DNA of 36,885 nt from Bacteroidota bacterium (GTDB lineage: Bacteria > Bacteroidota > Ignavibacteria > Kryptoniales > JAKASW01), in the NCBI GenBank assembly GCA_021845665.1, contig JAJZVO010000042.1, forward strand, positions 1 to 36,885. Direction: 5' to 3'. The notes under the pieces are model-generated. The model was not told where the DNA came from and searched no databases. It saw only the letters and a list, made by a program, of their open reading frames with translations. Of this stretch, positions 3,929-9,995 are shown piece after piece (position 1 is the stretch's first letter; each line of letters opens with the position of its first letter). The position numbers and the translations under genes are program-made.

Positions 3929-4852
3929 ATGCCACAGGGAATCAGGAATTTGTTGGGACTTCGCGACGTGGAGCCCGAAGGTCTGCTCGAGATACTCGAT
4001 ACTGCCCGGAGCTTCAGGGAAGTCCTCGAGCGTCCCATAAAGAAAGTCCCGACTCTTCAGGGGACGACGGTAGTGAATCTCTTTTTTGAAAGTTCGACGC
4101 GTACGCGCATTTCGTTTGAGCTCGCTGAGAGGCGGTTAAGTGCGGACGTCGTGAACTTTGTGGCGAGCGGGAGCAGCGTTTCGAAGGGCGAGACGCTCAA
4201 GGACACCGCGCGAAATATCGAAGCCATGAAGACCGACATAGTAGTGATAAGGCATTCGTCAACGGGCGCGCCTCATTTTCTCTCCCGGTTGCTCAAATCG
4301 CCCGTCATAAATGCGGGTGACGGGATTAACGAACACCCGACCCAGGCACTGCTGGACATGTTCACGATGAGGGAGAAGCTCGGCGAACTCAAGGGGCTTC
4401 ACGTATGTATCGTCGGAGACATAACGCACAGCCGCGTTGCACGCTCGAACATTTTCGGCCTGACGAAGCTCGGCGCGAGCGTCGCCGTTTGCGGGCCGAG
4501 GACGCTCATCCCGGATTATCTGGACCGGTTCGGCGTGAAAGTCTTTTACGATATCGACGACGCAATTCGGTGGGCCGATGTACTCAATGTCCTGCGTATC
4601 CAGCTTGAAAGGGAAGCGGGAGGGGATTTCCCGAGCATCAGAGAATACAGGCTGTACTGGGGAGTGAACCGATCGCGGCTTGAAAAGGTGAATAAGCAGG
4701 TCGTCATCATGCATCCGGGGCCGATCAACCGGGGGGTCGAACTCGATGCCGATATCGCCGACGGAGAAAGCTCGGTCATTCTCGACCAGGTTACCAACGG
4801 CGTTGCAGTAAGAATGGCAGTCTTATACTTAACAGGAGTCAAACCCTCATGA
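3929..4852 (+). CDS. pyrB: Aspartate carbamoyltransferase catalytic subunit
   Basis: Condenses carbamoyl phosphate with aspartate to N-carbamoyl-aspartate, the committed step of de novo pyrimidine synthesis. The 307-residue protein carries the carbamoyl-phosphate loop SSTRTR (55-60), the catalytic-loop Lys in SVSKGE (83-88), HPTQ (136-139) and HPGPINRG (262-269). No regulatory subunit (pyrI) is present, so the enzyme is likely the trimeric unregulated form or is held with dihydroorotase, whose gene overlaps its 3' end by 4 bp (ATGA). Control is probably through the PyrR leader. An AGGA lies 10 nt upstream of the ATG. Confidence 0.96.
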
Positions 4853-6153
4853 AAATATTCTTCAGAAATGCGAGGATCGTCGATCCGTCGGGGAATTACG
4901 ACGGGCTTTTCGATATAATGATCGTGGATGGAGCGATACAGGAGATCGGTTCATCGCTTGGCGGAAACCCCGTCAACTATGAGATCAACCTCCGCGGCAA
5001 GTTGGTTCTCCCGGGATTATTCGATATGCACACCCATCTGAGGGAACCTGGACAGGAGTATAAGGAAGACATCGCTTCCGGAACCGCTGCCGCGGCAAAC
5101 GGCGGATTTACGGCGATAGCAGCAATGCCAAACACAGACCCGGTAGTGGATTCAGCAGACGTGGTCAAGTACGTTATCGACAGGGCAAAGCAATCTCCAA
5201 CAGCGGAGCAAGCGGGCCTCGTGAGTGTGTATCAGATTGCGGCGATCACCGATGGAAGAAAAGGGGTGAAGCTTTCCGAGATGAAGGACTTATCGGAGGC
5301 CGGAGCTGTAGCTTTCAGCGACGACGGCTCTGCAGTGACGGATTCTCAGGTCATGCGGCTTGCCCTCGAATATTCATCGATGCTTGGCAAGCCCATCATA
5401 CAGCATTGCGAGGATCACGCCCTGACGAAGTTCGGCACGGTAAACGAGAGCCCGAAGACTATTGAATACGGTCTCAAGACCCAGCACAGGTTGGCAGAGG
5501 AATTAATCGTAAGCCGCGACATCATGATGCTCGAAGCATTCGGCGGTAAATACCATGCCACTCATCTTTCCGCCGCTGAATCGGTTGAGATAGTCGCCGC
5601 GGCAAAGAAGCGCGGGCTCCCAATAACGTGCGACGTCACTCCGCACCATCTCTTCCTGGACGACGGCCTCCTTTCTTCGTACGATTCTGACTACAAGGTA
5701 AACCCGCCGCTGCGAACGAAGGCGGACAATGAAGCGCTCGTTGATGCATTGAAATCAGGAGTGATCGATGCGATTGCGAGCGACCATGCGCCTCATGCGA
5801 TTCACGAAAAAGAGGTCGAGTTCGACTCGGCGCCGTTTGGAATGATTGGACTCGAGACCACGGTTGGTGCCGTGATGACGGGATTATATCACACCGGCGT
5901 GCTTGACATGCACGCGATCGTCAGACTCTTGTGCCTAAATCCGCGGAAGATAATGGGAATCCCAATTCCGCAGTTCAATCTTGGCGCCCGGGCGGATCTT
6001 ACCATCATCGATCCCGACTACGAGTGGACGGTGGATCCGGATAATTTCAAGTCGAAGAGCCGGAACACGGGGTTCAAGGGGCAGAGATTCAAAGGAAACG
6101 CGGTCGGTGTAGTCAACGGGGAGAGGTTTTATTTCTCCGACAGGCTTAGTTGA
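4849..6153 (+). CDS. pyrC: Dihydroorotase (class I)
   Basis: A zinc amidohydrolase that closes N-carbamoyl-aspartate to dihydroorotate. The 434-residue protein has the metal motif [10 protein letters not shown] with His61 and His63, the bridging region around QHCEDH, the substrate loop [10 protein letters not shown], a TPHHLFLDD metal segment, and the catalytic ASDHAPH with Asp312. The FGMIGLET segment is typical of class I enzymes such as those of Bacillus and Aquifex. Its ATG overlaps the pyrB stop, which implies translational coupling. Its 3' end overlaps the convergent aat gene by 8 bp. Carbamoyl phosphate synthase and the later pathway genes are not adjacent; pyrK and pyrD lie about 29 kb away. 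Confidence 0.96.
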
Positions 6154-6739
6154 TCGTTTTGATTCCCGGCGGGTTAAATTGCACCGGCAGCTCGATAGAC
6201 TTTCGAAGGAGGTGGATGTATTCACTCCTTGGAATCTCCACTGCGCCGAACATCCGGAGGTGAGGCGTGATGTATTGAGTATCGAGGAGTGTAAAGCCGC
6301 GCTCCACCAGGGATTCAAGGAGAAAGGCGAGAGCAGCCTTTGAAGCTCCGCTTCTGATGCTGAACATCGACTCGCCGAAGAAGGCCCCGCCGAGAGCGAC
6401 GCCATATAATCCACCGGCCAGTCCTTCGGAGTCGTAGCTCTCGATACTGTGCGCGTGTCCAAGTCTGTGCAGTTCGACGAAGCTTTCGACAATCTCTTGA
6501 TTGATCCACGTCTCTTCCCGGCCCGCGCAACCTCTGATCACAGCCTCGAAACTTTTGTCGGTTTCTACGCGGAATATTCCTTTCCTAATCAGCTGGCGCG
6601 TGGACCGCGGGATATTATAGCCATCGAGCGGAATTATCGTCCTTGGATCGGGAGAGTACCAGGATATGTTGTTATCGGAGCCTGCCATGGGGAAGTATCC
6701 GATTGAATAGGCGCCGAGAAGTATCGCGGAGGGGATCAT
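6146..6739 (-). CDS. aat: Leucyl/phenylalanyl-tRNA--protein transferase
   Basis: Transfers Leu or Phe from aminoacyl-tRNA to the N-terminal Arg or Lys of proteins, marking them for ClpS/ClpAP degradation (N-degron pathway). Family motifs are visible: GAYSIGYFPMA near the N-terminus, WYSPDPRTIIPL, the ETWI and HRLGHAHSIE substrate region, GLYGVALGGAFFGESMFS, ASKAAL and FTLLDTQYITPHL. The frame extends upstream to ATGs at 6802 and 6850. The 6739 start is preferred because the family N-terminus (IPSAILLGAY) begins there and a GGAGG lies upstream, though at a long 12-nt spacing; neither earlier ATG has a ribosome binding site. This gives 197 residues, shorter than the 234 of E. coli but usual for the short-N-terminus forms. 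It is tail-to-tail with pyrC, so it is independent of the pyr operon. Confidence 0.92.
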   Translation of the reverse strand: MIPSAILLGAYSIGYFPMAGSDNNISWYSPDPRTIIPLDGYNIPRSTRQLIRKGIFRVETDKSFEAVIRGCAGREETWINQEIVESFVELHRLGHAHSIESYDSEGLAGGLYGVALGGAFFGESMFSIRSGASKAALAFLLESLVERGFTLLDTQYITPHLRMFGAVEIPRSEYIHLLRKSIELPVQFNPPGIKTIN

Positions 6740-7011
6740 AAGGTCAAATTTCCTCCGTATCGGCGCGTGATCTTCACCCGCGTATTTTATCAGCAAAGAC
6801 ATAAAAAAGCAAAGGGAGGTCCGGACGCCGATTTCATAGACAGGGGCCAATTGCCGTTATCGATCTCACGGTTTGATCAATTCATGAATTGGCCGCTCAA
6901 TCCACCTTTTTTTTGGTTTGCCAGGAAATGCCGTGCGGAGAAGTATCGGGCAATGCCAAGGACGATTAAGAGAATAATTCAAGAATAATAAATTCGTGGA
7001 GGTGCCTCGTA
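6740..7011. other. Intergenic stretch between aat and the small transcription unit upstream of nif3
   Basis: No convincing gene was found. The plus strand has one short open frame (6767-6988) with no ribosome binding site and no recognisable family; part of it lies opposite the rejected upstream extension of aat. This stretch must hold the aat promoter on the minus strand, but I could not pick one with confidence. Confidence 0.4.
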
Positions 7012-7040
7012 TTGCATTTGTTCAGGAGCTTCGATATATT
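7012..7040 (+). promoter_or_regulatory. Candidate promoter of a short terminated transcript upstream of nif3
   Basis: TTGCAT (7012-7017) and TATATT (7035-7040) are separated by 17 bp. The -10 is a 5/6 match and the -35 a weaker 3/6. Initiation would fall near 7047, giving an RNA of about 120 nt that ends at the terminator at 7135-7169. Confidence 0.4.
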
Positions 7041-7060
7041 TTTAGCGTAATTTTTAGAAA

Positions 7061-7135
7061 ATGACAAGAAGAGAAGGCACATTTCTGATCAGAAAGTTCT
7101 TAAGAGAGAATTCAAAAGCAGGTCAGAAAATATGA
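7061..7135 (+). CDS. Possible 24-residue basic peptide, or leader/small RNA body (uncertain)
   Basis: An ATG-initiated frame of 24 codons encodes a strongly basic peptide beginning MTRREGTF and ending KAGQKI. Its TGA stop touches the first base of the terminator stem. It lies about 14 nt after the predicted transcription start and has no Shine-Dalgarno sequence. The region also contains the perfect palindrome TTTCTGATCAGAAA, which could equally belong to a structured small RNA. I recognise no family. Translation is unproven; it is listed because the frame fits exactly between promoter and terminator. Confidence 0.2.
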   Translation: MTRREGTFLIRKFLRENSKAGQKI

Positions 7136-7169
7136 AGTGTTCCAGTGAAAACCGGAACACTTTTTTTTT
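7135..7169 (+). terminator. Strong intrinsic terminator directly upstream of nif3
   Basis: A perfect 9-bp stem (AAGTGTTCC at 7135-7143 with GGAACACTT at 7154-7162), a 10-nt loop and a T-run of nine (7161-7169), followed by a second T-run. On the minus strand the downstream U-tract is poorer, so it acts in the plus direction. The nearest plus-strand gene upstream, pyrC, is 1 kb away behind the opposite-strand aat. The terminator therefore most likely serves a small transcript starting near 7047, or attenuates nif3, whose ATG is only 16 nt further on. Confidence 0.85.
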
Positions 7170-7185
7170 GGCTTTTTTATAATAG

Positions 7186-8286
7186 ATGAAGCTTTCAGAA
7201 GTAGTTAAGAAGATCAGTGACAGACTTCCAGTCGAGTTGGTGGCGGACCAGGACAACGTTGGGCTGATTCTAGGTGACTATGATGATGAATGCGGAAAGA
7301 TGGTCGTAGCATACGAGTTGAACGCCGGCGTCATTGATGAGGCAGTAAAATCAGGTTCCAATCTCATAGTAACCTACCACACACCCCTGTTCCGTGCGGT
7401 CAAGTCATTCACGACTTCATCTTCAAGGCCCGACATTCTTGTTCAGGCGGCCAGACGGCTGTTGAATGTGTATGCGGTTCACACCGCGCTCGACGTGGTC
7501 CAGGACGGGATTAATTTCGACCTCGCGTCACGGCTTGGTTTGAAGAACACAAAATATCTTTCGCCTCTGCCGGACACTCTCCGGAAAATTGTCGTCTTCG
7601 TTCCTCAAGATCATCTTGATAAAGTCCGCTCTGCGATGTCAAGGGGCGGAGCGGGCATAATCGGCAACTATTCCGAGTGCGCCTTCGCTTCGGAGGGAGA
7701 AGGTTCATTTCTGCCCGGAGGTGGCTCTGCGCCGTACATTGGCACGCCGGGGAAGCGAGAGAGAGCTAGTGAGTCACGGCTTGAAATGGTTGTGGAGAAG
7801 TCGCACGCAGGAAGAGTTGTTCGGGCGATGTTGGAGGCCCATCCTTACGAAGAGGTTGCTTACGATGTCTACCCTCTTCTGAACACTTCTGCAAACTATG
7901 GTTTCGGGGCGATAGGGGAGCTCGAAGAAAAGATGGTTGGCGGCAGATTCTTTGGGATGGTCAAGAAAGTGCTCGGACAGACTTTATTGAAAGCTTCTCA
8001 CGTCGTCGAGACTGAAGTGAGGAGAGTCGCCGTTTGCGCCGGGTCCGGTGTTTCATTTTACGGAGATGCTGTCCGTGAGCGTGCGGACATTTTCATAACC
8101 GGAGACGTAAAGCACCATGATTTTAGGGAAAGCATGCTGCTGCCGACGGTTCTTGTGGATGCCACGCATCGCGGGACGGAGAGATTTGCCGCAGGGATAC
8201 TTCATCGCATAATGAATGAAATTTTTAAAGATAGAGTCGTTGTCAATCTTAGCAAGTACGAATATGACAGTGCAGTCATTGTTTAA
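7186..8286 (+). CDS. NIF3/YqfO-type dinuclear metal protein (GTP cyclohydrolase 1 type 2 homologue)
   Basis: A 366-residue member of the NIF3 family in its long form: two metal-binding halves separated by a PII-like insert (about residues 125-240). Visible marks are the N-terminal DNVGLILGD, the metal region VTYHTPLF (Tyr replaces the first His of the usual HH pair), VHTALDVVQDGI near 97-108, the insert signature HPYEEVAYDVYPL, and the C-terminal ITGDVKHHD and DATHRGTE that complete the metal site. The biochemical role is unsettled in the family. The start is supported by match to the family N-terminus, but it has no Shine-Dalgarno and sits immediately behind an intrinsic terminator. Adjacency to a coiled-coil zinc-ribbon gene is a conserved pairing in many bacteria. 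Confidence 0.9.
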   Translation: MKLSEVVKKISDRLPVELVADQDNVGLILGDYDDECGKMVVAYELNAGVIDEAVKSGSNLIVTYHTPLFRAVKSFTTSSSRPDILVQAARRLLNVYAVHTALDVVQDGINFDLASRLGLKNTKYLSPLPDTLRKIVVFVPQDHLDKVRSAMSRGGAGIIGNYSECAFASEGEGSFLPGGGSAPYIGTPGKRERASESRLEMVVEKSHAGRVVRAMLEAHPYEEVAYDVYPLLNTSANYGFGAIGELEEKMVGGRFFGMVKKVLGQTLLKASHVVETEVRRVAVCAGSGVSFYGDAVRERADIFITGDVKHHDFRESMLLPTVLVDATHRGTERFAAGILHRIMNEIFKDRVVVNLSKYEYDSAVIV

Positions 8287-8304: not shown

Positions 8305-9051
8305 GTGGTTGTCAAGGATAAACTGAAGACGTTATACGAACTTCAGCAGGTAGATCTCAAATTAGATGGATTGCTTGAAGAACGAGGGGATTTGCCGGCT
8401 GATGTTGATGAACTAGAGAAGAAGATATCCACTTTAAAAGGCCAGATCAAAGAAAACGAGGATTATCTGAAGAAAGCAGTGTCGAGGAAGAAAGAAATCG
8501 ACAAAGAGCTCGACGAGGTGAGGAAAAGGATCGATAAGTTTACCGACATGCGGATCAAAGTAAAGACAAATCGCGAATATGACGCACTGAGTAAGCAGAT
8601 CGACAATTCCAAGGACAAGCTTCAGGAGCTGCATAAGGAACTTGAAAACATACAAGCAAAGGAAGCGGTCGCAGGCAAGGAAGTCGAGAAGCTGAAGTCG
8701 GAGTACACCGACGAAGAGCAGGTATATTCTTCGAAGAAGGTCGAGTTGGAAGAGCTGGTGTCTCTCACCCACGACGAGGAAAAGCGTTATGTGAAAGAGA
8801 GAGAGAAGTTCGCCCAGAAGGTCGACCGTCAGACATTGTCGCGTTACGAAATGATCAGGAAAGCGACGAAAGGCAAGGCGATCGTATCCGTTGTGAGACG
8901 CAACGCATGCGGCGGGTGTTACAATGTCCTGCCGCCTCAGAGACTCCTCGATCTACGGCAGATGGAGAAGATATACTCATGCGATCATTGCGGGAGGATA
9001 CTGGTTCCGAACGAGATCGTGGATGAAACGTCCGCCGACAAAGTTGCTTAA
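8305..9051 (+). CDS. Coiled-coil C4-type zinc ribbon protein (DUF164/zf-RING_7 family)
   Basis: A 248-residue protein made of long Lys/Glu-rich heptad helices (about 10-190) followed by a C-terminal zinc ribbon with Cys202, Cys205, Cys226 and Cys229 (CGGC and CDHC). Members of this family form extended coiled-coil hairpins and are suggested to bind nucleic acid; no catalytic residues are expected. It starts with GTG behind AGGAG, 18 nt after the nif3 stop, so the two are probably co-transcribed. The neighbourhood nif3, zinc ribbon, rnpB recurs in other phyla (also in Actinobacteria), which hints at a role connected with RNA or RNase P, by inference only. Confidence 0.9.
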   Translation: MVVKDKLKTLYELQQVDLKLDGLLEERGDLPADVDELEKKISTLKGQIKENEDYLKKAVSRKKEIDKELDEVRKRIDKFTDMRIKVKTNREYDALSKQIDNSKDKLQELHKELENIQAKEAVAGKEVEKLKSEYTDEEQVYSSKKVELEELVSLTHDEEKRYVKEREKFAQKVDRQTLSRYEMIRKATKGKAIVSVVRRNACGGCYNVLPPQRLLDLRQMEKIYSCDHCGRILVPNEIVDETSADKVA

Positions 9052-9570: not shown

Positions 9571-9964
9571 AGGAGTGGGCCAGGCAGCCGCTCCGACTTC
9601 GGTCGGGGAGGAAAGTCCGGACTCCACATGGCAGCAGGCTCCGGTGATCGCGCAGGCGAGTGCCGGAGGCGGGGCGACCCGACGGAAAGTGCCACAGAAA
9701 ATATACCGCCCGTCCCGAATTGCGGGATGAGTAAGGGTGAAATGGTGGGGCAAGAGCCCACCGTTCCCGGTGGCGACATCGGGATGCATGGTAAACCCCC
9801 TGCGGAGCAAGACCAAATAAGGGAGGAATTCCGGATGGACGAAGTCCATTCGGGACCGAGGCGGCCAGTCTCGGACGACTCCCGGGTAGGTTGCTCAGAT
9901 AAATGGCTGCCTCTCCTTCGCGAAAGCGAAGGGAAGACAGAATTCGGCTTATCGGCTCACTCCG
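9571..9964 (+). ncRNA. rnpB: RNase P RNA, bacterial type A
   Basis: The catalytic RNA of RNase P, which matures tRNA 5' ends. The 5' core GGAGGAAAGTCCGGACTCC (9610-9628) contains CR-I, followed by the conserved GACGGAAAGTGCCACAGAAA segment and AGGGTGAAATGGTGGGGCAAGAG (CR-II/III). GGTAAACCCC (9790-9799) is the L15 loop whose GGT pairs with the tRNA CCA end. The 3' core has CAGATAAATGGCTGCC and ACAGAATTCGGCTTAT. P1 closes the molecule: GGAGTGGGCC (9572-9581) pairs over 10 bp, one of them G-U, with GGCTCACTCC (9954-9963). That sets the ends to within a few nt and gives about 392 nt. No terminator separates it from recJ 32 nt downstream. Confidence 0.97.
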
Positions 9965-9995
9965 CTAATAGTTTCATGCTGGACGGGAGCGTTCG

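Follow-up and report, generated by a model that had tools for sequence, protein, structure and literature searches.

Comparison with related genomes confirmed that a compact unit of promoter, 24-codon reading frame and intrinsic terminator upstream of nif3 is both real and conserved, with the order promoter, frame, terminator and nif3 being present in all 13 genomes of the genus examined. The window, i.e. the whole stretch of DNA that was analysed, is 36,885 nt in length, and its relevant features are collected in Table 1. Judging from the sequence comparisons we hold, with moderate confidence, that the unit is a 5′ leader that would attenuate the nif3 operon by transcription–translation coupling, in that a ribosome positioned on the stop codon would mask the terminator. 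The preliminary description of this locus had offered three options, namely a small RNA, a gene for a small peptide or an attenuating leader of nif3; the last of these fits best because the unit is kept with nif3 across families while its upstream neighbour changes, whilst the peptide proved partly right and the small RNA was weakened.

Table 1. Features of the leader unit and its surroundings in the window
Feature	Position	Strand	Details and basis
Promoter (putative), TTG-N20-TATATTTT	7012–7042	+	TTG 7012–7014, TATATTTT 7035–7042, 20-nt spacer; alignment and motif counts
Leader ORF, 24 codons + TGA (7133–7135), peptide MTRREGTFLIRKFLRENSKAGQKI	7061–7135	+	ATG at 7061; codon comparison, shuffle null, profile
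Palindrome TTTCTGATCAGAAA, inside codons 8–12 of the leader frame, incidental	7082–7095	strandless	Kept in 2/13 genus genomes
Intrinsic terminator hairpin, 9-bp stem AAGTGTTCC (7135–7143)/GGAACACTT (7154–7162), loop 10 nt	7135–7162	+	
T9 tract of the terminator	7161–7169	+	Alignment, motif count
nif3 (DUF34_NIF3), downstream of the putative attenuator	7186–8286	+	PF01784, E 1.3e-57
C4-type zinc-ribbon protein gene	8305–9051	+	PF02591, E 2.4e-13; CT398 coiled coil under its cut-off
Leucyl/phenylalanyl-tRNA protein transferase gene, context outside the unit	6146–6850	−	PF03588

Architecture and conservation of the unit

The last base of the leader TGA is at the same time the first base of the terminator stem (position 7135 of the window sequence). 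As had been noted at the outset, no known gene needs this terminator: the transferase gene upstream is divergent, and the only plus-strand ORF of at least 60 aa just upstream of the unit (6767–6988, 73 aa) partly overlaps that gene and is a mechanical ORF. Downstream, the zinc-ribbon gene is probably co-transcribed with nif3 as a second gene, because the gap between the two is 18 nt. The gene for RNase P RNA (class A), at 9572–9967, is on the nif3 strand and separates the zinc-ribbon gene from recJ. Two pyrB- and pyrC-like ORFs are located at 3929–6153, upstream of the divergently oriented transferase gene; the nif3 leader, for its part, resembles a pyrBI-type attenuator.

The nif3 gene was found in all 13 genus genomes (f1; the handles f2–f27 denote the other groups compared), with the 12 others being 53–86 % identical to that of the window. 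DNA matches to the relatives began at query position 162 (7012) in seven of these 12 and were slightly off in the rest, and the alignment contained the promoter, the ATG and the terminator in all 12 genus genomes that reach that far. Alignment across relatives, which had been proposed with the preliminary description, showed that the core conserved columns follow codons and that conservation extends past the terminator stem. In one genome (G012), parts of the nif3 leader are found both at the start of contig C118 and at the end of contig C53; a single assembly break is the probable cause.

The element at 7012–7042, originally described as a promoter-like pair, looks to be a promoter of the Bacteroidetes −33/−7 type, for which we take TTG-N20-TAnnTTT to be the pattern. 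The motif TTG-N19–21-TAnnTTT was present upstream at 12 of the 13 genus loci and in 25/32 f10 genomes, more than chance would give at a background of 0.007 and 0.017 per 100 nt; the contig bearing the thirteenth genus locus, that of G012, starts within the leader. A looser test for TAnnTTT at 5–45 nt before the chosen ATG, with G031 left out, found it in 12/12 f1 leaders (3.8 expected), 18/25 of f10 (8.8 expected) and 3/10 of other families. Upstream of the leader in the other seven same-class families the full motif was absent from all 18 genomes. Between the final 60 nt of the leader and nif3, none of 63 genomes had it (G021 and G031 left out), a count that covers one motif only and is informative for f1 and f10. 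As the unit stays with nif3, and as the matching promoter motif in f1 and f10 lies only upstream of the leader, nif3 transcription in these two groups most likely passes the leader terminator. A consensus scan using E. coli sigma-70 rules did not list the 7012–7042 promoter and gave no excess of sites in the region over shuffles (promoters, 4 vs 3.3; terminators, 4 vs 4.0). With loops of up to 8 nt allowed, the scan listed the terminator hairpin on the minus strand only; the plus-strand loop is 10 nt.

To follow the terminator across families, 108 nif3 upstream regions were counted, a terminator being scored when it lay within about 50 nt of nif3. Nine same-class families had it in 65/66 genomes (f1, 13/13; f3, 4/5; f4, 3/3; f6, 5/5; f9, 1/1; f10, 32/32; f12, 4/4; f13, 2/2; f17, 1/1), or 52/53 outside f1 (f3, f4, f6, f9, f10, f12, f13 and f17); the terminators of G021 and G031, missed by the script, were placed by eye. 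Five other same-class families (f5, f8, f11, f15 and f16) had no terminator before nif3 (0/12). Outside the class, where 30 of 57 genomes with a nif3 match were examined, it was found in f18 (4/4) and f26 (2/2), and the other 24 were not convincing; we make no claim for the apparent f27 terminator of G139, a weak long hairpin. The f10 set was drawn from 36 matched genomes, with G068, G069, G072, G089 and G093 left out and G143 added. Also left out were G024, G034, G043 and G052, in which the nif3 middle domain only was matched, together with G059 and G060, which had no nif3 match. The nearest upstream ORF of at least 100 aa was divergent in 10/12 f1, 5/5 f6 and 1/1 f17 genomes, and co-directional in 27/31 of f10.

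We then counted a leader frame wherever an ATG opened at least 15 codons ending −17 to +5 nt from the stem, a range chosen after seeing the data. Such a frame was found near the stem in 49 of the 65 genomes, with about 5 expected. The frame was found, with its stop near the stem, in all 13 f1 genomes, for which shuffles predict 1.3; in the eight other same-class families the frame was present in 36/52 (4.0 expected from dinucleotide shuffles), including 26/32 in f10 (2.3 expected on the same basis). The genomes compared are related and so not independent, with the 32 f10 genomes spanning 28 genera. By the same definition the frame was absent in 16 of the 52 non-f1 genomes, including 4/5 of f6 and 3/4 of f12, leaving counts of 1/5 and 1/4 in these families; outside the class it was found in 0/4 of f18 and 0/2 of f26. 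Two f6 leaders (L080 and L081) have a frame without a stop ahead of the terminator, which reads through the stem.

In two groups a tRNA gene, detected with ARAGORN, lies near nif3 (tRNA-Ala in 5/5 f3 genomes and tRNA-Leu in 4/4 of f18), standing just upstream of the terminator where one exists. At the f3 loci (L061–L065) it is a tRNA-Ala(CGC), and in the four of these with a terminator it lies ~100 nt upstream of that element; in three of the four, a 21-codon frame ending Arg-Lys-stop touches the stem. In f18, which belongs to another class (L133, L134, L139 and L149), tRNA-Leu(CAG) is followed within ~30 nt by a AATGCACG..CGTGCATT terminator and then by nif3.

The leader frame and its peptide

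Within the genus, the ATG and an open frame are kept in 13/13 genomes, with no stop ahead of codon 22. In ten of these the leader stop and the 9-bp stem have one base in common; in one the stop ends 1 nt short of the stem, and in the remaining two the distance is 8 nt. Frames of 21 codons, with TAG at codon 22, were seen in G002 and G007; in both leaders (L026 and L024, respectively) a second stop, TGA in G002 and TAA in G007, stands at the usual place three codons past the TAG. The alternative frames are less open, frame 1 being stopped in 13/13 and frame 2 in 9/13 genus genomes. Codons 12–14 read AAR TTY TTR throughout, producing an invariant K-F-L core with free third bases, and synonymous single-base codon differences in the genus amounted to 1.53-fold the expectation in frame 0, compared with 0.97 and 1.20 in frames 1 and 2, respectively. 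When all codons are considered, differences by codon position were 0.42 at position 3, 0.34 at position 1 and 0.39 at position 2; this small position-3 surplus suggests that constraint is weak outside the K-F-L core. On this pattern of substitution the leader frame is coding-like and apparently translated.

The coding signature seen in the genus, with its invariant KFL core, would be expected too if the unit were an independent small basic protein gene, equipped with its own promoter and terminator, from which nif3 would be transcribed by unregulated leak-through only. The composition is indeed basic, with K+R at 26 % and D+E at 9 % in ten f1 peptides, and K+R at 27 % and D+E at 5 % in 26 f10 peptides; these residues are scattered (K+R 26–27 %), and the leader peptides share no run of one codon or residue. 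Moreover, 25 f10 peptides aligned better than residue-shuffled versions (mean score 8.72 vs 5.98, SD 0.30, reached by 0/60 shuffles), a result that shared descent alone could give; the f10 peptides for composition and alignment were hand-picked, and the alignment test was run without G094. In three f10 pairs, third-position differences made up 6/10 in one, second-position differences 12/19 in another, and the last was even (8, 10 and 9), such that peptide constraint outside the genus appears weak.

Against a free-standing gene stands the distribution of the peptide. A peptide profile found the nif3 leader in 13/13 genus genomes, as well as at the second G012 contig end, and across 41 genomes its matches below E 0.01 were to nif3 leaders only, although a profile of 24 residues is weak for distant relatives. 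Seven genomes of the same order (f2, G013–G019; small, two of them <80 % complete) gave no nif3 match, and these also had no match to the leader-peptide profile below E 0.01. A weak query-DNA match in one of them (G014, L015) showed no promoter–frame–terminator unit by eye. Additionally, a Pfam search with two leader peptides returned no family, and between families the peptide sequence is hardly kept, over frame lengths of 15–37 codons, whereas the position next to the terminator is. As such, we consider a free-standing small-protein gene unlikely.

The terminator stem and RNA structure

The intrinsic terminator reported at first is well supported in the genus by a stem that is identical in 12/13 genomes, G004 being the exception with a G-U pair, and by a T tract that is T9 in 12/13 and T10 in one; the loop varies freely. 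This near-invariance of the stem is not explained by masking alone. In 12/13 f1 genomes the genus stem was found at a single site, the one at nif3, and a search of 48 genomes from outside the genus gave no match. The f12 stem pattern was matched at nif3 in 4/4 genomes, and f10 patterns, where matched, at nif3 only (3/4 in one search and 8/11 in another); a single match away from nif3 was obtained in six genomes of other families. The single site per genome led us to reject the view that the stem is a terminator repeated genome-wide, whether generic or of the uptake-sequence kind. Matches with at most one mismatch in the window numbered 9, compared with 6.75 expected.

A stem sequence that is largely nif3-specific might indicate that the hairpin itself is the regulatory element, bound in trans by a protein that the operon itself might encode, with the upstream frame or tRNA only supplying transcription. 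Consistent with this, the core GCAC..GTGC is present in 31/32 f10 hairpins, TGCAC is found in most of f10, f12 and f18, the f3 stems contain TGCA, and tRNA genes stand upstream in f18 and f3. However, a different core, GTGTYC, occurs in f1, f4, f9, one of two f13 and four of five f6 genomes, with GTGCCC in one f6, and the likeness among stems could be slow drift under a pairing constraint. A stem-binding protein also leaves the kept frame that ends at the stem unexplained, and overall we find it quite unlikely. We also entertain, as a tentative idea with the chances well against it, that a hairpin with core TGCAC or GTGTYC may be an old nif3 cis-element across the Bacteroidota classes, in which the feeding element (frame, tRNA-Ala or tRNA-Leu) would have been exchanged.

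A third alternative is a trans-acting small RNA of ~120 nt, with the terminator as its 3′ end and nif3 downstream merely by history. The unit is self-contained in promoter and terminator, its stem is nearly invariant in the genus, and its fold as a whole is better than that of shuffled sequences (z −2.98 in the window). This fold is largely that of the terminator, however, and without it the remainder was no better than shuffles (z −1.03 in the window; mean z −0.37 in f1 and −0.21 in f10). The palindrome TTTCTGATCAGAAA, which the preliminary description had included in the unit, is present, but its conservation in 2/13 genus genomes speaks against a role, and it was rejected as an operator. 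Taken together, the unconserved palindrome and the fold without its terminator weaken the small RNA, as do core conserved columns that follow codons. No Rfam family was found in the unit at the gathering score, RNase P RNA being the sole family in the window. Below threshold, BjrC68 matched with 28.0 bits (cut-off 39, E 3.5e-5), but over 7123–7170 only, and we rejected this identity as mere hairpin likeness; GibS (RF04182) matched over its whole model with 28.1 vs 115 bits (E 0.082), and the remaining sub-threshold matches had lower scores and E ≥ 0.01. As the units were located via nif3, free copies elsewhere are excluded for the stem and the peptide only. Such an RNA is thus, in our estimation, very unlikely.

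Pairing of the leader with either terminator arm showed no gain over shuffles (n=65; mean z +0.33 for the 5′ arm and +0.10 for the 3′ arm). One candidate antiterminator, GGCACATTTC (7076–7085), in which 9/10 positions pair with the 5′ arm (−10.3 kcal/mol), was rejected as chance; among the 13 genus genomes this pairing is seen only in that of the window and its close relatives G012 and G003. Given that neither folding nor arm pairing exceeds shuffles, an RNA antiterminator or riboswitch in the leader is unlikely.

Proposed control of nif3 and comparison with known systems

For the attenuating leader that we favour, we infer the start site, translation, masking, regulated read-through and signal as follows. 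Transcription would begin a few bases past the TATATTTT box, and a ribosome would load on the 24-codon frame, near the 5′ end of the RNA. With no ribosome close behind the polymerase, the hairpin would fold and a transcript of ~120 nt be released, making off the default state. A ribosome at or near the stop codon would instead cover the 5′ stem arm, no hairpin would form and polymerase would proceed into nif3, such that the role of antiterminator is taken by the ribosome rather than by RNA. The signal would then be the distance between ribosome and polymerase, set by translation speed or by polymerase pausing as in pyrBI, and not one amino acid. By analogy, the leader looks built to sense transcription–translation coupling. 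A constitutive partial terminator that sets a fixed low nif3 level and reads no signal would suit a strong terminator (T9–T10 in the genus) and the lack of an antiterminator, but the conserved frame ending at the stem would then be needless, and we deem this highly improbable.

Masking of this type has a precedent in E. coli, where, in one study, termination at an intrinsic terminator fell from ~90 % to <10 % when a stop codon preceded it by 5 bp, an effect abolished by uncoupling translation (PMC4824070). According to the same work, a terminator that falls within the first 100 bp of a coding sequence functions well, as the ribosome seldom catches up so early, and early-frame terminators are repressed where ribosome and polymerase are coupled through pausing, pyrBI being an example (PMC4824070). 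Since early terminators are usually unrepressed, masking in the nif3 leader would require polymerase pausing or fast loading.

The available text of a 2010 survey placed demonstrated leader-peptide systems, besides ermC, only in Proteobacteria and Actinobacteria, and itself added Firmicutes; nif3 is not named in its main text, supplements aside (PMC2965389). NIF3/DUF34 proteins are described as ubiquitous and of contested role, and have been argued to be metal insertases, chaperones or maturases, in a study whose accessible text holds no passage on a leader or riboswitch (PMC8469502). Among the papers listed on nif3, its attenuation or leaders, supplements and subscription papers aside, we found no report of a nif3 leader unit, and no paper was listed on leader attenuation in Ignavibacteria or on small RNAs of Chlorobaculum tepidum. 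If the conserved attenuator is true, these lineages would control nif3 by translation state, which offers a testable lead on its function.

Several known systems resemble the unit in part. The small RNA GibS of Bacteroides, to which there was the weak match mentioned above, is likewise a Bacteroidetes intergenic transcript of similar length with a terminator, but it lies beside glycogen genes, as stated in the part of its report available (PMC7366714), whereas the unit described here stands beside nif3 and has a conserved frame. Attenuators of the trp, his and leu type share the order of short leader frame, intrinsic terminator and operon; the nif3 leader differs in having neither a cluster of sensed codons nor a competing antiterminator pairing. 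Its stop is mostly within 17 nt of the stem, in contrast to a separation of >20 bp between leader gene and terminator in amino-acid attenuators, as given in the text available (PMC4824070). Ribosome-mediated transcription attenuation, as proposed here for nif3, has been described for bmrCD of Bacillus subtilis in the portion of the report at hand (PMC4191407). The nif3 unit differs from bmrCD in that no antiterminator was found and in that the downstream gene is neither a transporter nor a resistance gene. The bmrCD attenuator, too, has a short leader frame.

The pyrBI (pyrL) attenuator of E. coli senses UTP and has no antiterminator. As in the nif3 unit, a leader frame is coupled to an intrinsic terminator, and the relative position of ribosome and polymerase decides read-through, according to the available text (PMC4824070). 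In pyrBI the stop is at or beyond the terminator, which lies inside the frame, and the nif3 leader, whose stop abuts the stem, is alike in position only. pyrBI has a U-rich pause site in its leader and controls pyrimidine genes; nif3 is no pyrimidine gene, and the 5′ part of its leader is U-rich (window sequence). The general plan of leader-peptide attenuators, a short frame between promoter and terminator, was found in 13/13 f1 genomes and, for the frame, in 36/52 elsewhere, with the promoter motif in f1 and f10 only. If correct, the nif3 leader would represent a simple regulator design that dispenses with an RNA switch and uses a ribosome on the stop codon as its antiterminator.
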